A stretch of DNA of 38,739 nt from a virus. The notes under the pieces are model-generated. The model ran no database searches. It saw nothing but the letters and a program-made list of their open reading frames with translations, and had not been told where the DNA came from. The first letter of the stretch is position 1. Each line of letters begins with the position of its first letter. Positions 24,581 through 38,739 of the stretch are shown piece by piece. The position numbers and the translations under genes were made by a program. The stretch spans positions 1-38,739 of IMG/VR virus record IMGVR_UViG_3300003876_000013, one strand, 5' to 3'.

Positions 24581-24703
24581 GTTTAGTCTTCTATCTTATA
24601 ATTCTCTTAGTGAGGTAGTTTAGTCTTCTATCTTATAATTCTCTTAGTGAGGTAATTCTCTTAGTGAGGTAATTTATGAGTGAGGTAATTTATGAGTGAC
24701 GCA
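24581..24703 (+). repeat. Nested tandem duplications over the start of the next gene
   Basis: A 37-bp unit is repeated exactly (24581-24617, 24618-24654). Its last 17 bases appear a third time (24655-24671). A 16-bp unit built on ATTTATGAGTGAGGTA (24672-24687) then repeats imperfectly (24688-24703) and supplies the real start codon at 24692. Each 37-bp unit holds a TATAAT, and each short unit holds a GAGG ribosome-site core. Repeat slippage would change promoter or ribosome-site number. Confidence 0.9.
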
Positions 24704-25327
24704 ACAGAGTTTACGGAGTTTGTTGTATTGGGCGATTCACGGCTCGATCAAATAAACATTGATTTTCTAAGAAATAAAAAAATAATAGCAATAAACAAAG
24801 TTCCATTACTTACTTATAACACAGAAGTATTTAATTTAATCCATCACTGGATCACTTGGGATTGTTCTAATTTCGATGTGATTCAAGTCCTACCTGCCAA
24901 TATAACCCCTTGGTTACGATCTTCTATTGAACTCAGAGAGAAGATGCATGATTGTCCACATGAGACCGGCATGCAGTGGTACGAGGACGCTGGAGGGCAT
25001 ACTGCCCATATTCGTACTATTGATCCTACTATTCCGTATGTAACAACTCCTTTAGCTTCATGTCAAAATCTCAAATTAAATAACAACTCGAGTATTGTTG
25101 AAACAGCCTGCCATCTAGCCTGGAACCTCGGAGCAACTAAGATCTTTTTAGTTAGTACTGATCTCGATGAAGAATGCAAGCATCTCTACACACCTGCTTT
25201 ACACAAATTAAATGACGCTTTAACTTCTCTAAACACAGCAATTCCTGTATACAGAACAATAGGATCAAGCTCTTTGAACTTACCGCTATATAGGGGAAAA
25301 GTCTACAAAAAAGAGATGAGGTTGTAA
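24692..25327 (+). CDS. DUF115/sialyltransferase-like protein (putative nucleotide-sugar-type enzyme)
   Basis: A 211-residue protein. The N-terminus, FVVLGDSRLDQINIDFLRNKKIIAINKVPLL, looks like the first strand-helix-strand of DUF115/Maf or GT42 sialyltransferase-like proteins (a G-x-S loop, then a strand ending in N-x-V). Near residue 145, ETACHLAWNLGATKIFLVSTDL resembles their conserved A-x-x-LGA-x-x-I-x-L-x-G-x-D segment. Such proteins transfer or handle sugars. It is followed without gap by a methyltransferase, so the two may act on one substrate such as DNA, tRNA or a surface sugar. The ribosome site lies in tandem repeats. Confidence 0.45.
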   Translation: MSDATEFTEFVVLGDSRLDQINIDFLRNKKIIAINKVPLLTYNTEVFNLIHHWITWDCSNFDVIQVLPANITPWLRSSIELREKMHDCPHETGMQWYEDAGGHTAHIRTIDPTIPYVTTPLASCQNLKLNNNSSIVETACHLAWNLGATKIFLVSTDLDEECKHLYTPALHKLNDALTSLNTAIPVYRTIGSSSLNLPLYRGKVYKKEMRL

Positions 25328-25879
25328 ATGGCTTATTACAAAGATCTTTATACAGATATATGGATCAATAAGCGCACAAAAAGAAAGTCTCATGGAGAAG
25401 CCCTGGTACCTTTGGCCTCTCAATTACTGCTACTAGGTGACCAAGGGTCAATAACTTTTTTCGGTTGTGGTACCGGGAAAGAATGCCTTGCTATGAGTAA
25501 AGAGCATCCATTGTTAAAAATACAAGCAAACGATGTAACTAAAGCGGCCTTACTAAACTCTGACATCACCTTCTTTGAAAACCCTCTATGGAATATGAAC
25601 TATATACCTGAATCCACCTATGGATTCTGTGCAGACGTCTTAGAATATATACCTAAACCCTTGTTAAGGGACGCCTTATATTCAATAAAACAGGTTGTAC
25701 AAAAAAGAGTATATTTTTCTATATCCTTGATCAGTGGTTCTTGGTGCAAAGAACACTTGCATGTAATAAATAAAGAACCCGCTGAATGGAGAGCTCTATT
25801 AAATGAGCATTTTATGGAAACCTATTCAGATAGTGATGCTACTCATTTTTATTACGCAGGAGAGCTGAAAGGTTGTTAA
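25328..25879 (+). CDS. SAM-dependent methyltransferase, class I
   Basis: A 183-residue protein starting one base after the previous stop. Motif I is TFFGCGTGKE (about 43-52), the acidic strand-2 end is ANDVT (Asp69), and the motif IV region is GFCADVLEYIPKPLL (about 99-113), a common layout in phage-borne methyltransferases. It would move a methyl group from S-adenosylmethionine. The substrate is not visible. The lack of DPPY or PC motifs argues against standard base methylation of DNA. CAAGGGT lies at 25442, with an inverted copy at 25667. Confidence 0.75.
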   Translation: MAYYKDLYTDIWINKRTKRKSHGEALVPLASQLLLLGDQGSITFFGCGTGKECLAMSKEHPLLKIQANDVTKAALLNSDITFFENPLWNMNYIPESTYGFCADVLEYIPKPLLRDALYSIKQVVQKRVYFSISLISGSWCKEHLHVINKEPAEWRALLNEHFMETYSDSDATHFYYAGELKGC

Positions 25880-26321: not shown

Positions 26322-27170
26322 ATGGTAAATCCAGATCGAGAACTAGACAAAACACACCTATCCATTGACCAAGCAGAAGAGCGAGGATTTATCCATCGCG
26401 ATTATATCGCGCACTGTTTAAGATGGAGTCATGTATGCAAGTATATGAGTATAAAAAACAAGTATAAAACAGCGCGCATCCTGGAGGTAGGATGTGGTAA
26501 AGAAATACCATTATTAAAAACGTTATACACCTCGCGTATGAGTCCGGCGCACTACACCGGATATGATCTAAATATTGTCAATCCTCCTATCCTACCTAAA
26601 ATAATTAATAAAATGGGAGCTGACAACATTCATATACATGATGAGACCGATTTTTCTTTGGAAGCAGTACCCTTGGAAGTCGTTCCAACAGTCATTGTTT
26701 GTTTCGAAGTCCTTGAGCACGTATCTCCTTCAAAATGCCTCGATATCTTAGCTACTTTTTATACAATAATGGCTGAGGATACCATTGCCTTCATCTCAAC
26801 CCCTTGTTACAATGGAAAAGCAGCGGCGAATCATATCAATGAGATGACATATCAAGCTTTTGGTTCTGTATTAGAAGCTCAAGGCTTTGAAATCATTGAT
26901 CATTGGGGAACCTTCGCAAGTCAATCAGACCTTAAAAAAGATATACTCATTATGGATCATGAACAATGGTCTCTATTTGACTTATTAAAGGAATATTATG
27001 ATTCAAATTTTCTTGCTACTGTGTTTGCTCCTCTTTTTCCTGAAGCTTCACGTAACGTTCTTTGGAAGGTAAAGAAAAGACAGATCAATTGTCCTTGTCC
27101 ACCTGACCGTAAATTTTCAGATATAACTGAATGTGCAGAACCGTGGAGTTCATCAAAAGATTGGAACTGA
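26322..27170 (+). CDS. SAM-dependent methyltransferase, class I, second
   Basis: A 282-residue protein behind AAGGAG. Motif I is RILEVGCGKEIPLL (about 52-65), the acidic end is GYDLN (Asp82), and motif IV is VIVCFEVLEHVSPSKC. A UbiE/COQ5-type FISTPCYNGKAAANHI loop follows, then a C-terminal extension with a Cys cluster (INCPCPPD, then TEC). It is longer than the first methyltransferase and differs in its substrate part. The target is unknown. An inverted CAAGGGT lies at 26669-26675. The 3' end overlaps the next gene by 38 bp. Confidence 0.75.
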   Translation: MVNPDRELDKTHLSIDQAEERGFIHRDYIAHCLRWSHVCKYMSIKNKYKTARILEVGCGKEIPLLKTLYTSRMSPAHYTGYDLNIVNPPILPKIINKMGADNIHIHDETDFSLEAVPLEVVPTVIVCFEVLEHVSPSKCLDILATFYTIMAEDTIAFISTPCYNGKAAANHINEMTYQAFGSVLEAQGFEIIDHWGTFASQSDLKKDILIMDHEQWSLFDLLKEYYDSNFLATVFAPLFPEASRNVLWKVKKRQINCPCPPDRKFSDITECAEPWSSSKDWN

Positions 27171-27321: not shown

Positions 27322-27711
27322 ATGATTAATCAATTTAATTTAGTTGCTCAATTCCATGAAACATTCGAAATAGGTTACTTCAGAGGACCACGTAGCCTAC
27401 CTGAAGAAGAAAAAGATTTCAGGGTCCGCTGTTTGAATGAAGAAGTTGGTGAGTACATAGAAGCAAAAACAATAGAAGCTGAGCTCGATGCTATTGTAGA
27501 CATAGTTTACTTCGCTATGGGAACAGCCTACCGCCAAGGTTTGGACTTCAACGAAGCTTTTAAGAGAGTTCATGAAGCAAATATGGCAAAAGAGCTCGTG
27601 AGTGAAAAAAATCCTTCAAAAAGATATTTTCATCTTGATGTCGTAAAACCCTTGGACTGGAAACCTCCTAACTTAAAGGACCTATGTGATGAAGACAATA
27701 CAAGAACTTAA
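27322..27711 (+). CDS. MazG-fold nucleotide pyrophosphohydrolase
   Basis: A 129-residue single-domain MazG-like protein. The metal-binding pattern is visible as Glu40, Glu41, Glu44 in CLNEEVGEYIEA, then Glu54, Asp56 and Asp60 in EAELDAIVDIVYFAMGTAYRQG. The family hydrolyses nucleoside triphosphates to monophosphates. Next to a dCMP-type hydroxymethylase candidate, it could act as a dCTP pyrophosphatase like T4 gp56, keeping plain cytosine out of new DNA. It could also act on ppGpp or dUTP. An inverted CAAGGGT lies at 27648-27654. Confidence 0.75.
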   Translation: MINQFNLVAQFHETFEIGYFRGPRSLPEEEKDFRVRCLNEEVGEYIEAKTIEAELDAIVDIVYFAMGTAYRQGLDFNEAFKRVHEANMAKELVSEKNPSKRYFHLDVVKPLDWKPPNLKDLCDEDNTRT

Positions 27712-27853
27712 GGACGAGCTTTACCTTCTAAAATTAAAGAATGATATGAAACAGCAAAAAGAATGGAATAAAGTTTTTAACTTAGGACGCCTTACTTTTA
27801 TTTTATTCATAGTAGCCGCTGTATTGGAGGGTATAATATGCCTGATGAAATAA
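27689..27853 (+). CDS. 54-residue membrane protein, C-terminal anchor
   Basis: AAAGGA eight bases before the ATG at 27689, overlapping the end of the MazG gene. A charged helical N-terminus (ELKDELYLLKLKNDMKQQKEW) is followed by one membrane helix (LTFILFIVAAVLEGIICL). It resembles the inner-membrane type of small phage protein, but an i-spanin here, far from the lysis genes, is unlikely. Function unknown. Confidence 0.5.
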   Translation: MKTIQELKDELYLLKLKNDMKQQKEWNKVFNLGRLTFILFIVAAVLEGIICLMK

Positions 27854-28035
27854 ACGCAAAGAAAGAGATCAACCCAGCGTTACTAATCTCAGGAGGTTCT
27901 TATTCTAAAAAGAATCTCAATACTAAAAACATCCGAGGATGGAATAGGAGTGTGACTTATGGTTATAAAAAAAACAACAATAACAAAGAAAAAAGCTACG
28001 ATTACAGAGATGAGCAAGATAGAAAAGGATCGTAA
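27838..28035 (+). CDS. 65-residue basic protein overlapping the next gene, uncertain
   Basis: GGAGGG about seven bases before the ATG supports translation. It is a hydrophilic, Lys/Asn-rich peptide (INAKKEINPALLISGGSYSKKNLNTK). The last 25 or so residues are read from inside the following gene in another frame and look low-complexity. The original stop may have been lost, or only the first part matters. No family. Confidence 0.35.
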   Translation: MPDEINAKKEINPALLISGGSYSKKNLNTKNIRGWNRSVTYGYKKNNNNKEKSYDYRDEQDRKGS

Positions 28036-28282
28036 AGGGAAATATGGACCAATTGATATTTCTCATACAGCGTATGGTCATATTTGGAAAGGTCTTTTGG
28101 AAACTCATTTTGAAATGGAACTTCCAGATATTCCAGCTCATGTAGTAGCTTCAATGCTTGCAGCCATGAAATTAGCTCGTTCAGTCGTACCAAGAGACTT
28201 TAACCCAGACAATGAAGTTGATGCGATGAACTATACTTCCTTCATTTATCGTCTCGATGAAAGGAATCCTGATAGTGACTGA
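27959..28282 (+). CDS. DUF6378-like phage protein
   Basis: A 107-residue protein, ATG with AGGAG eight bases upstream. After a Lys/Thr-rich start it reads KYGPIDISHTAYGHIWKGLLE, then VASMLAAMKLARSV and DNEVDAMNYTSFI. The pattern YG-x-x-x-x-x-H, helix, M-x-K-x-AR, DN-x-VDA-x-x-Y is what I know from DUF6378, a small helical phage family often near nucleotide enzymes. The role is not established; an all-alpha MazG-like pyrophosphatase relation is conceivable. It overlaps the next gene by eight bases. Confidence 0.55.
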   Translation: MVIKKTTITKKKATITEMSKIEKDRKGKYGPIDISHTAYGHIWKGLLETHFEMELPDIPAHVVASMLAAMKLARSVVPRDFNPDNEVDAMNYTSFIYRLDERNPDSD

Positions 28283-29042
28283 TATAAACCAAGTTTGGAT
28301 AAATGTTCTTCAGGATATTATACACGTAGGAACAGTAGCGCAGCCTAGAGGTGAGTCTACGTCTGAATTGCTTGCATATAAATCAATTGTTGATATGGCA
28401 ACACCATACTTAAGCATCGGAGAAAGAGGCCTTGGCAATAGGTTCAGGGCTGCTGAAGCTGCTTGGATTCTTTCTGGTCAAAATAAAGTATCTTCTATAA
28501 AAAAATATGCTAAAGCAATATCTGATTTTAGTGATGATGGTTATTTTTTCAGAGGAGCTTATGGCCCTCAAATCATATCTCAATTGCCTTACATTATTGA
28601 TTTGTTAAACAAAAGCAAAGAAACACGTCAAGCTGTCATTACCATATGGAATAGAAACCCAGCGCAATCAAAAGATATCCCTTGTACAGTGTCTATTCAA
28701 TTCTTAATAAGACAAGGAGCTCTCAACTTAGTTGTGAATATGCGATCATCTGATGCTTGGCTAGGATGGCCTTACGACGTTCACAACTTCTCTTGCTTAG
28801 CAGCTTATGTTCTCTTAATAATGAGTCATTTGCATGGAAAAGAATATACATTAGGAACGCTATATTTGATAGCCGGAAGCCAGCATATATATAATTACGA
28901 TTATGAAAAGGCTTTACGTATAGTAGATCTTTATGTTGCTGGGCAAAAGACTATTCCAGAATCTGATAATCTAAAATATTCTCATTTTTGTGATCCAGAA
29001 GATTTTATCAGATCTCTTTGGGAGACAGCTAATGGAAAGTAG
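28275..29042 (+). CDS. Thymidylate synthase-fold enzyme, likely dCMP hydroxymethylase
   Basis: I start at GTG 28275 (AAGGA nine bases upstream, overlapping the previous stop). An ATG 18 bases earlier is possible. The protein is 255 residues. The family core is clear: catalytic Cys137 in IPCTVSIQF, phosphate-binding Arg157-Ser158 in NMRSSDAWLGWPYD, and the late GSQHIY. Three points differ from thymidylate synthase and agree with T4 dCMP hydroxymethylase as I recall it: Cys-Thr, not Cys-His; Asp168 where synthases have the dUMP-reading Asn; and GS, not GD, before x-H-x-Y. The predicted substrate is dCMP. It may hydroxymethylate or methylate; the sequence does not decide. Confidence 0.7.
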   Translation: MTDINQVWINVLQDIIHVGTVAQPRGESTSELLAYKSIVDMATPYLSIGERGLGNRFRAAEAAWILSGQNKVSSIKKYAKAISDFSDDGYFFRGAYGPQIISQLPYIIDLLNKSKETRQAVITIWNRNPAQSKDIPCTVSIQFLIRQGALNLVVNMRSSDAWLGWPYDVHNFSCLAAYVLLIMSHLHGKEYTLGTLYLIAGSQHIYNYDYEKALRIVDLYVAGQKTIPESDNLKYSHFCDPEDFIRSLWETANGK

Positions 29043-29532
29043 ACTAAATATTGATGATTATTTTCTATCTATGGCATCACTGGCCTCTTTACGAGGAACT
29101 TGCAGAAGAAGAAAAGTAGGTTGTATTTTAGTAGATAAACACAAAAATGTTATGTCTACTGGCTATAATGGCGTTCCAAGGGATCATACTCATTGTTTAC
29201 TTAGTCCGTGCCCTGGGGCAAATCATAAATCTGGGGAGGGTTTAGACTTATGCTATGCCATTCATGCGGAACAGAATGCCCTTCTACAGTGCAAAGATGT
29301 GGAGAATATCTCAATATGCTACACTACTACTGCCCCGTGTGTGACATGTACAAAATTATTGCTAAATACAGGATGCAGAAAAATCGTGATCCTAGAGGAC
29401 TACGCACATTCCATAGAATCAAAACGCATATGGACAAAATTCTCAAATAATACATGGGAGCTAGTTGACAATGCTACAAGGATGTTTATTTCCACCTTTC
29501 TCAAATTGGAAAGCGCCAACAGAGTTTCCTAG
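29032..29532 (+). CDS. Deoxycytidylate (dCMP) deaminase
   Basis: A 166-residue protein. Start at the ATG at 29032 with GGGAG upstream, overlapping the previous stop by 11 bases; an ATG 42 bases earlier is inside that gene. Zinc and catalytic motif H-A-E (78-80, in YAIHAEQNAL) and P-C-x-x-C (102-106, in APCVTCTK) define the cytidine/dCMP deaminase fold. The long insert with HCLLSPCPG is typical of the dCMP branch. It would turn dCMP into dUMP for thymidine supply and compete for the same substrate as the preceding enzyme. Confidence 0.88.
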   Translation: MESRLNIDDYFLSMASLASLRGTCRRRKVGCILVDKHKNVMSTGYNGVPRDHTHCLLSPCPGANHKSGEGLDLCYAIHAEQNALLQCKDVENISICYTTTAPCVTCTKLLLNTGCRKIVILEDYAHSIESKRIWTKFSNNTWELVDNATRMFISTFLKLESANRVS

Positions 29533-31330
29533 GTTGTCAGGAGCTAAAATTCTAGGCCTAGACACTGAAACTCGTGATCCTAATTTAAAAGAACGAGGAC
29601 CTGGAGGAGCTAGAAATGATGGAGAACTTGTCGGAATCAGTCTCGCCGTACCAGAGGGGCAAAAGTGGTACTTTCCAATTGCCCATCAAGGGGGAGGAAA
29701 CTTGGATCGTGAAGCAGTTTTGCAATGGTTACGGGATGTCTTCAAAGCACAAGATGAGTGTTCTAAAGTCGGGGCTAACATACTCTATGATCTTGAATGG
29801 CTCCATAACGCAGGAGTCCGCGTGCCTGGTCCATTCGTCGATATTCAGGTTGCAGAACCACTTCTTGATGAAGATAAATACGGAGGATATTCCTTACAGA
29901 ATCTTTCGAAGTATTATTTGGGAGAACAAAAAAAAGAATCCCTGTTGGAAGAGGCTGCAAAAGCATTTGGAGTCGACCCAAAAGGAGGATTGTGGAAACT
30001 TCCAGCTAAGTATGTCGGACCTTATGCAGAAGATGATGCATTGCTCCCACTTAAAATATGGGAGAAGCAAAAAAAGAAGCTTAAAGAACAAAATCTTGAA
30101 GATGTTTTTCAGTTAGAGTCTGATCTAATTCCAATATTGCTTGATGTTAAAATGAGAGGAGTAAGAGTAAATGTAGAGAGAGCAGAGGAGTTAAACTATG
30201 CTTTAATAAACACTGAACTGGCCTTAGTAGACAAAATAAGCAAGTTAGCTAAATTCCCTGTTAACCCTTGGTCACCAAAGCATTGTGTTAGGATTTTTGA
30301 AGATAACAAAATAGCATACCCAAGAACAGAACCAACACAATCATCCGCTAATGGCAATCCATCTATAACAGGAGATTGGTTAAAGAATCACGAAAACCCA
30401 ATTTGTGAGATGCTTGCTGAGTTCAGAAAAACAAACAAAATGCGCAGAGATTTTATTGAAGGAACTATTATTAAACAAAACACTAACGGAAGGATTTATT
30501 GTCAATTTCATCAACTTAGGGCTGATTCTAAAGGAACTAGGTCTGGGCGCTTCTCCTCCTCTAACCCAAATCTGCAACAACAACCTTCGAGAGACTCTTA
30601 TTGGGGACCTCTTATTAGATCACTCTATATACCTGAAGAACACCATATATGGTCGCGTCATGACTATAGTCAACAAGAACCTCGAGTATTAATACATTTT
30701 GCTTGTCAACCTTTTGTAATAAAAAGTAAAGGATGGAACTTTCCAGAAGGGCTTCCAGGAGCTAGAGAAGCAGCTCAACGCTTTATCGATGATCCTACAA
30801 CAGATTATCACCAAATGACTGTTGAAGAGATTGCACCATACAAAACAATAACAAGGAATGTAGGTAAACAAGTAAATTTAGGAATGGCTTATAGAATGCA
30901 GGTGTATAAGCTATCTCTTGAACTAAAAGTATCTCAGTCAGAAGCTCAGATAATACTTAATGCTTATCATAAAGCAAAGCCTTACGTTGAACTCTTGGCT
31001 CAGATTTGCGAACATACTGCCTTAACAAAGAAGAAGATAAGAACATTACTTGGTAGAGTGAGGCATTTTAAATCAGCTAGAGACAAGCCATATCATGCAA
31101 TTAATGCTGAGATTCAAGGATCATCAGCTGATATAACTAAAAAAGCAATGATTGATTGTTACAATGCTGGATATTTGCCTCACATCCAAGTACATGATGA
31201 ACTCAATTTTTCTATAACTGAAGGAAGAGAGGTGAAAGAAATAAACGAACTTATGGAAAATGGAGTAAAGATGCGATTACCTTTATTAGTAGACTCTATT
31301 CAAGGGGAGAATTGGGGTGAATGTAAATGA
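29471..31330 (+). CDS. polA: Family A DNA polymerase
   Basis: A 619-residue protein, ATG at 29471 with GGGAG upstream, overlapping the deaminase gene. The proofreading 3'-5' exonuclease has Exo I LGLDTETRD (about 29-37), Exo II ANILYDLEWL and Exo III YAEDDALL. The polymerase has motif A HDYSQQEPRVLIHF, motif B RNVGKQVNLGMAYRM and motif C HIQVHDELNF. The residue matching E. coli Phe762 is Leu (K-x-x-N-L), and the usual Tyr-Gly of motif B is Tyr-Arg. A short TTLGRV-type linker replaces a longer loop. It is the replicative polymerase of the phage. Confidence 0.95.
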   Translation: MLQGCLFPPFSNWKAPTEFPRLSGAKILGLDTETRDPNLKERGPGGARNDGELVGISLAVPEGQKWYFPIAHQGGGNLDREAVLQWLRDVFKAQDECSKVGANILYDLEWLHNAGVRVPGPFVDIQVAEPLLDEDKYGGYSLQNLSKYYLGEQKKESLLEEAAKAFGVDPKGGLWKLPAKYVGPYAEDDALLPLKIWEKQKKKLKEQNLEDVFQLESDLIPILLDVKMRGVRVNVERAEELNYALINTELALVDKISKLAKFPVNPWSPKHCVRIFEDNKIAYPRTEPTQSSANGNPSITGDWLKNHENPICEMLAEFRKTNKMRRDFIEGTIIKQNTNGRIYCQFHQLRADSKGTRSGRFSSSNPNLQQQPSRDSYWGPLIRSLYIPEEHHIWSRHDYSQQEPRVLIHFACQPFVIKSKGWNFPEGLPGAREAAQRFIDDPTTDYHQMTVEEIAPYKTITRNVGKQVNLGMAYRMQVYKLSLELKVSQSEAQIILNAYHKAKPYVELLAQICEHTALTKKKIRTLLGRVRHFKSARDKPYHAINAEIQGSSADITKKAMIDCYNAGYLPHIQVHDELNFSITEGREVKEINELMENGVKMRLPLLVDSIQGENWGECK

Positions 31331-32345: not shown

Positions 32346-33100
32346 ATGACAAAATCAAAAGAAGTAGTTCAAAAAAAAGATGAAGCTTTGGTAGTATCTG
32401 ATGATATGATGGCAGATGTTGGAGTAACTGGCTTCGAGAGCATGACCTCTAAAGACATGGAAATTCCTTTCATGACTATTCTTGAGTCAGGAAGCCCTCA
32501 ATGCAAAAAATCAAATGATCAATATATTGCTGGAGCAGAAGAAGGTATGATCATGAATACTTTTACTCAGAAAGTGTTTGATGGTGATCTTGGAATAGAG
32601 ATCATACCCTGCTTCTTTGAAAAAGTAATGTTGGAATGGAAACCTGCGATATTGACGACAAAGGTCGGGTTGTAATGGGTAATGGAAACTTCCTTCAAGA
32701 GACTGGACAGTACTATGTTCTCTTATTGGAAAAAGATAAGCCAGCAGACAAGGTTTGCATCACAATGGCTTCAACTCGATTAAAAACTTCAAGAAGATGG
32801 AATCGCATAATGTCCTTACGCCTTGGTAAGCGCAAGGATGGGTCTGATTTTGTAAAACCAATGTTCTCATCTTCATACCAAATGACTTTGCTTGGTAAAC
32901 AAGCTGGAGATAACTCATGGTGGATTTGGGAAGTTGAAGAGAAAACTCCAGTAACTGATCCAAACCTATTCAGAATGGCTATGGCTTTTGCGACTGAATG
33001 TTCCAAGGGTTTGGTTAAAGTTACTCAAGATGCTGGAACTTCTGACGATGCTGGAACTTCTGACGATGCTGGAACTTCTGACGATTCTGTACCTTTCTAA
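32346..33100 (+). pseudogene. SSB-like gene split by an internal loss
   Basis: Two frames hold one protein. Part A (from 32346, reading MTKSKEVVQKKDEALVV to FFEKVMLEWKP) runs out of sense near 32645. Part B resumes in another frame at DIDDKGRVVMGNG and runs to 33100. About 15-20 residues expected between them seem lost, with a frame change. The C-terminus is an acidic linker ending DDSVPF, like the DDDIPF tip of bacterial SSB that recruits partner proteins. The body (ITMASTRLKTSRRWNRI, then SSSYQMTLLGKQ) is beta-rich. Probable single-strand DNA-binding protein. The break is either an assembly error or a real mutation. Confidence 0.55.
33029..33082 (+). repeat. 18-bp tandem repeat, three exact copies, in SSB-like tail
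   Basis: GATGCTGGAACTTCTGAC at 33029-33046, 33047-33064 and 33065-33082, encoding DAGTSD three times just before the acidic tip. In-frame copy change would alter tail length only. Confidence 0.9.
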
Positions 33101-34827: not shown

Positions 34828-36238
34828 TATAGTAAATGACTATTTAAAAAAAGGAGGAAAATCAGATAAAGTAGCTTACCTAGCTTTTACTAGAAGAGCT
34901 GCTTTAGAAGCTATAAACAAAATACAAGAGGTAACTGGTTATTCAAAGAAACAATTTCCTTACTTTAGAACGATACATAGTCTGTGCTTCAGAGAACTTC
35001 TTCTAACAAAGACAGACATAGTTCAAAAGGAACATTTAGTTGAACTAGGAGATGAGCTTGGGCTCGACATTCGTTGTAGAGGTTCTTTCGAAGAAGGAGG
35101 AATCTGGGGATTCAGCGACGGAGATAAAATAGTGACCCTTGAAAACATGTCACGGGTTAATATGACTTCATTGAAGCAAATTTGGGAGGATGATGATAAT
35201 GAAATCTTATGGGAGCAGTTGGAGACTTTTAGATCACGCTATACCAAGTATAAAGAAGAGAAAAACCTTGTTGATTTTACAGACATGCTCGATTTGTTGT
35301 CAAAAAACCCGATTAAAAAAGAATTTGATCTCGTTATTGTGGATGAGGCACAAGACTTGTCAAAGATGCAATGGAACGTTATTAATTCTATTAATACCAA
35401 ACGATTATATACCGCCGGAGATGACGATCAAGCCATATATACCTGGTCAGGAGCTGACGTAAATTCATTTATTGATTTTAAAGGAGATATAGAAAACTTG
35501 ATTCAAAGTCACAGGTTGCCGTATACTATATGCAAATTAGCTACTGAGCTAGCAACTACGATCAAAAATAGGATTCATGAAAAGAAAATACATCCTACAG
35601 AAGAAGAAGGATCAATACATAGGATTGTTGACTTAGATGAGCTATCCTTCGACCAAGGTTCATGGTTGCTATTAGCTAGGAACGCATATCAATTAGCTGA
35701 ATATGAGGAGCTCTGCATAACTAGAGGTGTTCCATATGAAATAGCAGCAACACGACGCTACAGAATAGGGATAATAAAAGCAATAAAGATATGGACTTCT
35801 TTAAGAAAAGGGTATTGGCATTCTGGAAAAGAACTCAAGAAATTACTAAAGCACTTGTCTTTTAAAAAAAATTCTATGTTAGAAGATAACAAAAACTATA
35901 ACATGGATTATCTAGTTCAAAGATTATCAGTCAAAAACAGTGGAGAGTGGTTCGATGTTCTAACTGATATTGGTTATGAAGAAATTGAATTTTTCAGAAG
36001 TGCTTTAAGAAGAAAGGAGGATATTGAGTTTCCAAGGGTTAGGATATCAACAATACACGGGGCTAAAGGAGCCGAAGCAGATCATGTTGTTGTTATGACC
36101 GATATTTCGAGGAAAGCTTTTGATCGTATGGAAGAGAATCTCGATGATGAAACTCGTGTTTTTTATGTAGCTATAACAAGAGCTAAATCATCTTTATATA
36201 TAGTAAGCCCAACCTCAAGGTATTATTATGATATATAG
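34763..36238 (+). CDS. UvrD/PcrA-type superfamily 1 DNA helicase
   Basis: A 491-residue protein, ATG with GGGAGG upstream. Motifs in order: Walker A GPPGTGKTTR (10-19), motif Ia YLAFTRRAA, motif II LVIVDEAQDLSK, motif III AGDDDQAIYTWSGA, motif IV-type SHRLP, motif V ISTIHGAKGAEADHVVV, motif VI RVFYVAITRAKSSLYI. It is shorter than cellular UvrD (about 720), having lost part of the accessory subdomains, as is usual in phages. It unwinds DNA 3'-5' for repair or replication. CAAGGGT lies at 36033, with an inverted copy at 35135. Confidence 0.93.
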   Translation: MESMKRKILGPPGTGKTTRLTNIVNDYLKKGGKSDKVAYLAFTRRAALEAINKIQEVTGYSKKQFPYFRTIHSLCFRELLLTKTDIVQKEHLVELGDELGLDIRCRGSFEEGGIWGFSDGDKIVTLENMSRVNMTSLKQIWEDDDNEILWEQLETFRSRYTKYKEEKNLVDFTDMLDLLSKNPIKKEFDLVIVDEAQDLSKMQWNVINSINTKRLYTAGDDDQAIYTWSGADVNSFIDFKGDIENLIQSHRLPYTICKLATELATTIKNRIHEKKIHPTEEEGSIHRIVDLDELSFDQGSWLLLARNAYQLAEYEELCITRGVPYEIAATRRYRIGIIKAIKIWTSLRKGYWHSGKELKKLLKHLSFKKNSMLEDNKNYNMDYLVQRLSVKNSGEWFDVLTDIGYEEIEFFRSALRRKEDIEFPRVRISTIHGAKGAEADHVVVMTDISRKAFDRMEENLDDETRVFYVAITRAKSSLYIVSPTSRYYYDI

Positions 36239-36755
36239 TGACTACTGGGATTTATTAAACATAGATCTTAGAAGAGATTCTACTAAGATCATTAAAGCTG
36301 GAGACAAGTACGATGTAGTAGCTTTTTTTCAGAATACTTGGTTTATTCGTGGAACTGAAACAGATGTTATAATAAGATACACAAAGGACCAAGAGTATCA
36401 ACAGAAGTTAATAGCACAAACAATGACTGGACGGCGCCTTCTTTCTGCTTTTACTTCATCATTTAGGAATATCTTTTGGGATAATTGCACACAGTTATCT
36501 ATCGACGATCCAAATGGTAGTTTTGATGCTAACAGAGAGCATGTTCTTGAAATAATTGCTAGAATAAAACCAAAAATAGTAATAGGTTTCGGAGCTGAAT
36601 CTCGCTTAGTTATACAAGAACTGCTGCCTTTATTATACAGAACTGGTGTTAAAAAAGTTTTGTTCTTCAAACATCCAAATGCAAGAGGAGTTACTTCAAT
36701 TGAGTTGCGTGAATTTGCTATGGATGTTATTGAAACTTGGAAGGAGTTAAAATGA
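36228..36755 (+). CDS. Uracil-DNA glycosylase-superfamily-like protein
   Basis: A 175-residue protein overlapping the helicase stop. The segment RIKPKIVIGFGAESRLVIQELL followed by KKVLFFKHPNARG resembles the strand-helix core and the late H-P-x-A loop of UDG-like proteins, where the His-Pro loop inserts into DNA. An early catalytic G-x-D-P-G or G-E-x-P-G motif is not visible, so it may be inactive, act on another base, or be only a fold relative. Position between two helicases fits a repair or base-checking role. Confidence 0.4.
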   Translation: MIYSDYWDLLNIDLRRDSTKIIKAGDKYDVVAFFQNTWFIRGTETDVIIRYTKDQEYQQKLIAQTMTGRRLLSAFTSSFRNIFWDNCTQLSIDDPNGSFDANREHVLEIIARIKPKIVIGFGAESRLVIQELLPLLYRTGVKKVLFFKHPNARGVTSIELREFAMDVIETWKELK

Positions 36756-38341: not shown

Positions 38342-38707
38342 TTAATATCCCCAAGTAATTTTTTGAGGTTTACTTAGGTCACAATCTACATGAAAAATTC
38401 TAGCTCCTTTTTTATTTCCAGTTCCATATCGGTTAAAAGCATCGGTCATAACAACTGCTTTTATTATCCTATACCTATAAAAATTGTCAGGTATAAAAAT
38501 ATCAGCAGCTAAACCTGATATATGTGAAGATGTTGAAGAAGCTCCTATAAGAGTGTTATAAGTCTTACACCTATAGCCACTAGTTATATTTATAGGTTCT
38601 CCTAAAAAGTCACGTACTTTTTGCAAACGACTTATCAAGTCATCTTTTACTTTATTTTCACATAAACCACAAGGACAATCAAACTCATTGATAGGGAAGT
38701 TATTCAT
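38342..38707 (-). CDS. Peptidase M15 family endolysin (D-Ala-D-Ala type, M15_3-like)
   Basis: A 121-residue protein. Zinc-site pattern: His62 and Asp69 in SSHISGLAAD, and third ligand His106 in FHVD. The substrate-side SGYR (43-46) is also typical. A Cys cluster CPCGLC (11-16) precedes it and is common in this family. It cleaves peptide links of the cell wall. On the circular map it follows the holin-like gene (123-353) as the last gene of the late arm. It converges with the SNF2 gene, leaving one base between stops. Confidence 0.88.
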   Translation of the reverse strand: MNNFPINEFDCPCGLCENKVKDDLISRLQKVRDFLGEPINITSGYRCKTYNTLIGASSTSSHISGLAADIFIPDNFYRYRIIKAVVMTDAFNRYGTGNKKGARIFHVDCDLSKPQKITWGY

Positions 38708-38739
38708 TTAAGTACTGGTCTCCATGCTTTGATGTTGGG
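38650..38739. repeat. Terminal direct repeat, right copy
   Basis: Exact copy of bases 1-90. See the left copy. It shows that the window covers one full turn of the genome plus 90 bases. Confidence 0.95.

Follow-up and report, generated by a model that had tools for sequence, protein, structure and literature searches.

The question raised by this locus is whether a phage gene with the thymidylate synthase (TS) fold serves thymidylate supply, or whether it and its neighbors modify the cytosine of the phage DNA. The following genes, all on the plus strand, have been located in the window, i.e., the whole stretch of 38,739 nucleotides of record IMGVR_UViG_3300003876_000013: a SAM-dependent methyltransferase (26322–27170; PF13489), a MazG-like NTP pyrophosphohydrolase (27322–27711; PF01503, E 1.1e-10), a DUF6378 protein (27959–28282; PF19905), the TS-fold protein, a predicted dCMP 5-hydroxymethylase (28257–29042; PF00303, E 3.2e-18), a dCMP deaminase with HAE and PCxxC zinc motifs (29032–29532, ATG at 29032; PF00383, E 3.4e-20), and a Family A DNA polymerase (PolA; 29471–31330, ATG at 29471), which lies directly 3′ of the deaminase gene in podovirus-type relatives. 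The first-pass annotation had named the MazG, TS-fold and deaminase genes and read them as a possible modified-cytosine pathway. These three genes are found, with the above Pfam matches, where it had placed them, and the pathway reading is supported by the sequence tests described here, while it was incomplete in leaving out the methyltransferase upstream of MazG. We consider it likely that the genes form a cytosine-modification operon making 5-hydroxymethylcytosine (hmC) for the phage DNA, a view favored by the active-site residues, the tree position, the identity of the nearest solved relative (MilA), the gene neighborhood, and the restriction-resistant DNA of phage AXL3.

Bases 1–90 of the record are the same as bases 38650–38739, and because of this 90-bp direct terminal repeat the window is probably a complete (circularized) genome of about 38.6 kb. 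The record is catalogued without end repeats, despite its identical 90-base ends. Its gene content is of podovirus type (internal virion protein, tail proteins, head-tail adaptor, terminase, primase, and helicases), and its GC content is 37%, as compared with 63% in AXL3. Two overlapping ORFs (32346–32675 and 32636–33100) correspond, in this order, to the two halves of phrog_2402 and are probably a single gene, interrupted by a frameshift or split through an error in sequencing.

Residues of the TS-fold protein used for the comparison are Glu67, Tyr102, Asp140, Cys143, Thr144, Arg163, Asp166, Asp174, His210, and Tyr212, counted from the ATG at 28257; Cys137 and Asp168 of the first-pass annotation were counted from a GTG at 28275 and correspond to Cys143 and Asp174. 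The catalytic residues of the TS fold (Glu67, Tyr102, Cys143, Arg163, Asp166, His210, and Tyr212) are all aligned. An Asp at the position where dUMP enzymes carry Asn, and Cys-Thr and GS-x-H in common with T4 gp42, had been proposed, and both are borne out by the alignment: Asp174 is aligned with Asn177 of E. coli ThyA, Asp179 of T4 gp42, and Asp186 of MilA. In T4 gp42, this Asp179 decides the use of dCMP over dUMP (PMC6400193; PMC8670742). At 11 active-site positions, the window protein has EYDCTRDDSHY, which is identical in the alignment to T4 gp42 and to MilA, while ThyA has EYLCHRDNDHY and the dUMP hydroxymethylase gp29 of SPO1 has EYDCNRDNSHY; overall identity to T4 gp42 is 22%. The gp29-type signature is also absent from the window protein, which has Asp174 and not Asn at position 177. 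Asp140, located three residues ahead of the catalytic Cys, corresponds to Asp145 of T4, the residue that, by activating water, lets the reaction end in a hydroxymethyl group (PMC6400193); this Asp is also found in SPO1 gp29 and MilA and is absent in ThyA and td.

A single-protein query of viral contigs gave no match. An alignment query of viral contigs kept 80 loci, and adding six phage records and the window brings the set to 87 proteins. Asp140, Cys143, Thr144, and Asp174 are present in all 87 of these; the Asp-x-Pro-Cys-Thr stretch had been part of the search seeds, whereas Asp174 had not. On the same strand and no more than 6 kb away, a P-loop nucleotide kinase was found in 79, MazG in 54, a dCMP deaminase in 53, and the methyltransferase in 47 of the 87 cases. 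In another scan, for which the methyltransferase served as the seed and which is free of the bias of the first, the hydroxymethylase was detected in 53 of the 60 methyltransferase loci having at least 3 kb downstream. Among 60 further hydroxymethylases found via the methyltransferase, Asp174 is kept in all and Asp140 in 59. The hydroxymethylase signature is kept in about 140 viral relatives, mostly within a conserved cassette.

The cassette has two arrangements. The order methyltransferase, MazG, kinase, hydroxymethylase, and deaminase is found in podovirus-type contigs and in AXL3, PW916, and siphovirus ctUtU524, and the pair of kinase and hydroxymethylase in relatives of the pelagiphage type. 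The contigs are partly near-copies and are not all independent, and podovirus-type phages owe some of their synteny to shared descent. However, siphoviruses whose cassette has different surroundings retain its gene order, which argues against descent alone. AXL3 and PW916, siphoviruses of other hosts, and ct3Et533 share the order seen in the window, but in these three phages a kinase gene separates MazG from the hydroxymethylase gene (an unannotated ORF in PW916). From this follows the prediction that a large group of small phages, most of them uncultured, has its DNA cytosine substituted, together with a reinterpretation of the “thymidylate synthase” of the isolated phages AXL3, PW916, HTVC200P, and HTVC119P.

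Other readings of the enzyme have to be weighed against this prediction. In an ordinary dTMP-supply operon, the deaminase would produce dUMP, the TS-fold enzyme would convert it to dTMP, and MazG would only clean the nucleotide pool. The authors of the PW916 and AXL3 genomes read their cassettes in this way (for AXL3, PMC7504290), and the annotations “thymidylate synthase” and “thymidylate kinase” agree with it. Furthermore, td of Shigella phage SP18 (L011, 486–1346), annotated as a thymidylate synthase and located beside frd, has Asp at the position of E. coli Asn177, unlike T4 td in the solved structure, which has Asn. Asp alone is therefore no proof, and the combination of residues is the stronger argument. 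In this combination, ThyA has other residues in place of each of Asp174, Thr144, and Asp140, with Asn at 177 and His after the Cys; the best score of the window protein with the curated NCBIfam thymidylate synthase models is 63.4 against a cut-off of 174.55, the other models being below their cut-offs as well; and AXL3 combines restriction-resistant DNA with a separate ThyX-type enzyme. Dedicated dTMP supply is therefore a very improbable function of the operon. Use of ribonucleotides, as by the CMP hydroxymethylase MilA, with a small molecule or RNA as the destination, is more remote again and we give it hardly any weight. MilA is the nearest solved protein by sequence (E 8.9e-23), true thymidylate synthases being far behind, but its CMP-specific Lys133 and Ala176 are replaced by Arg124 and Ser164 in the window protein (Arg in 144 of 147 rows, the other 3 being gapped, and Ser in all 147), which indicates a deoxy substrate, and the gene adjoins those of a dCMP deaminase and a DNA polymerase.

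The remaining choice concerns the group added to dCMP. A dCMP methylase of the Xp12 type, with hydride transfer ending the reaction, would make 5-methyl-dCMP, and the DNA would carry 5-methylcytosine (5mC). The change of Asn to Asp at position 177 alone converts true thymidylate synthases to dCMP methylases (PMC8670742), and phage DNA with full 5mC does exist in Xp12 (PMC7653180). We nevertheless regard this outcome as unlikely, since Asp140 of the window protein matches the water-activating Asp of T4, with no acid there in ThyA, and since a fully supported branch of the tree parts ThyA and T4-like td from T4 gp42, MilA, SPO1 gp29, and all relatives of the window protein. The AXL3 genome has 13 sites for KpnI and 14 for Eam1105I, an isoschizomer of AhdI, yet AXL3 DNA was cut by neither enzyme. 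Because KpnI and AhdI cut the fully 5mC-substituted Xp12 DNA (PMC7653180), the AXL3 base is probably other than plain 5mC. Of 37 restriction enzymes, only TasI and Tru1I, whose sites are without G or C, cut AXL3 DNA, and the 35 that fail all have G/C in their sites (PMC7504290); this resistance could come from other genes of AXL3, some of unassigned function, rather than from the cassette. The first-pass annotation had allowed 5-hydroxymethyl- or 5-methylcytosine, and the evidence from Asp140 and from AXL3 favors the former over the latter. Judging from its residues, the TS-fold protein is most likely a cytosine-specific, T4 gp42-type dCMP 5-hydroxymethylase, and Asp140, Asp174, and Arg124/Ser164 make 5-hydroxymethyl-dCMP (hm-dCMP), rather than methyl-dCMP, its most likely product.

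For this predicted hydroxymethylase pathway, the following steps can be proposed. MazG would hydrolyze dCTP to dCMP and so keep plain cytosine out of the DNA; the protein keeps the family-invariant Glu40, Glu41, Glu44, Asp56, and Asp60, and the nearest solved relatives of its profile are the putative NTP pyrophosphohydrolase 3nl9 and the MazG-like DR2231. The TS-fold enzyme would transfer a methylene from CH2-THF onto C5 of dCMP via Cys143, with Asp174 recognizing cytosine, and water, instead of hydride, would end the reaction through Asp140 to give hm-dCMP. Leftover dCMP would be converted to dUMP for thymine synthesis by the deaminase, whose solved relatives are dCMP deaminases, as a T4-type pathway requires. 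After phosphorylation, hm-dCTP would be incorporated by PolA, which is likely to use the modified dCTP, and the DNA modified in this way would be protected from host restriction. For the polymerase, an aminoadenine (DpoZ) role was rejected on the basis of a score of 292 bits against a cut-off of 500.

The hmC pathway of T4 consists of the gp56 dCTPase, the gp42 dCMP hydroxymethylase, the cd dCMP deaminase, the gp1 kinase, and glucosyltransferases. The window resembles it in the identical active-site residues of the hydroxymethylase and in the presence of a putative dNTP pyrophosphohydrolase and a dCMP deaminase, but differs in that the genes form one tight cassette in a phage of about 38.6 kb, a MazG-type protein is present instead of a gp56-type one, a kinase and a recognized glucosyltransferase are absent, and a methyltransferase and a DUF6378 protein are added. 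The same Pfam set (TS, MazG type, and dCMP deaminase), mostly with Asp at 177, was found by MetaGPA on modified-cytosine contigs (PMC8670742). The 5-carbamoyloxymethylcytosine contigs among them have TS with Asp177, PF01503, PF00383, and PF14437 on one contig (PMC8670742); unlike these, the window has a methyltransferase and no carbamoyltransferase was seen in it. MilA, of mildiomycin, shares the catalytic and cytosine-recognition residues with the window enzyme but prefers CMP, whereas dCMP is predicted for the latter. Xp12 is similar in that a TS-type reaction acting on dCMP leads to full cytosine substitution, and differs in the base, methyl in Xp12 and predicted hydroxymethyl in the window.

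A phage-encoded hm-dCMP kinase, as in the T4-type pathway, is lacking in the window. The absence of a recognizable dNMP kinase, already pointed out in the first pass, holds for the whole record when searched with a profile built from the kinases of related loci, and with the terminal repeat the absence is probably true. Likewise, no kinase was found anywhere in record L094 (40,845 bases, with its own terminal repeat of 127 bases). In most relatives, hm-dCMP would probably be phosphorylated by the P-loop kinase whose gene immediately precedes that of the hydroxymethylase. In the window and in L018, L032, L037, L093, and L094, this kinase is absent and its slot is filled by DUF6378; L027 has a partial DUF6378 at the contig edge. 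These kinase-less sequences fall in two separate groups of the tree with moderate support, which suggests that the state may have arisen twice. The simplest reading is that a host kinase would act on hm-dCMP, perhaps with help from the DUF6378 protein. Such a helper role, suggested earlier, agrees with the position of DUF6378 in the kinase slot, while the protein has no P-loop and its model is all-helical with low confidence (pLDDT 69); a disguised P-loop kinase was rejected in view of the missing P-loop and the all-helical prediction. A fold search with this low-confidence model gave only noise and no fold relative, and profile matches to designed TPR proteins were dismissed since they cover about 27 residues. 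With two complete-looking kinase-less genomes (the window and L094), the route of hm-dCMP phosphorylation becomes testable. In most cassettes of the methyltransferase type, the kinase is extended at its C terminus by a further domain of about 145 aa, whose motifs recall uracil-DNA glycosylases (GD...HP..RF), e.g., in L022 (3319–4335), L045 (5950–7005), L055 (5986–7002), and L003 (8031–9014).

The methyltransferase, the regular first gene of the cassette, is found in only four phages among 50,697 phage records, and all four have the hydroxymethylase cassette. Its structure model (METHYLTRANSFERASE) is confident (pLDDT 88.6) and has a class I fold. The nearest solved structures in the fold search are varied small-molecule and RNA class I methyltransferases, with E. 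coli CmoM, which acts on tRNA, having the top query-normalized TM-score in the fold list (0.57, too weak to name a substrate). Because of its regular company with the hydroxymethylase, the hydroxymethyl nucleotide or base is the leading candidate target, and the enzyme probably modifies one of these further. A more specific proposal, which we put forward tentatively and think somewhat unlikely as a whole, is that its substrate is hm-dCMP, or hmC in DNA, to which it adds a methyl at the hydroxymethyl group or elsewhere to give an undescribed hypermodification, e.g., 5-methoxymethylcytosine, and that DUF6378 takes the place of the missing kinase step in the subgroup of the window. It is also quite possible that the hmC pathway stands and the methyltransferase is unrelated to the base, being a neighbor retained through common descent whose target is an RNA, a protein, or a small molecule. 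The generic class I fold and the pelagiphage-type relatives, which have kinase and hydroxymethylase without it, are consistent with such independence, but its confinement, among the 50,697 phage records, to phages with the hydroxymethylase, the presence of the latter at 53 of 60 methyltransferase loci, and the order retained in siphoviruses despite different surroundings argue for a link. In a search of a limited body of literature, no description was found of a methyltransferase tied to a dCMP hydroxymethylase, or of methoxymethylcytosine in phages. While the type of pathway is known from T4 and the MetaGPA contigs, the methyltransferase link and the exchange of DUF6378 for the kinase look new, and the final DNA base of the window phage may be new as well. 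The methyltransferase is a candidate enzyme for such a base, and if its proposed role is true, the glucosylated hmC of T4 would have in this cassette a counterpart that is widespread among small phages.

Several other genes of the window are recorded here. In the kinase-less subgroup, the cassette methyltransferase is preceded by a second, small methyltransferase-like gene (window 25328–25879; L018 2526–3149; L037 3944–4585). Proteins encoded farther upstream (window 24692–25327; L037 3348–3956), of which that of L037 is weakly like MptE-like or sialyltransferase-like proteins, may represent a sugar-transfer enzyme. A protein of 175 aa (36228–36755) that matches no family looks similar, by eye, to a protein of ct3Et533 (L005 15832–16320) whose annotation is G:T/U DNA glycosylase, and the two share WDN, GFG/TFGK, and HPNAR motifs. 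If true, the presence of a UDG-like protein in the window and ct3Et533 would be notable beside cytosine modification and deamination.
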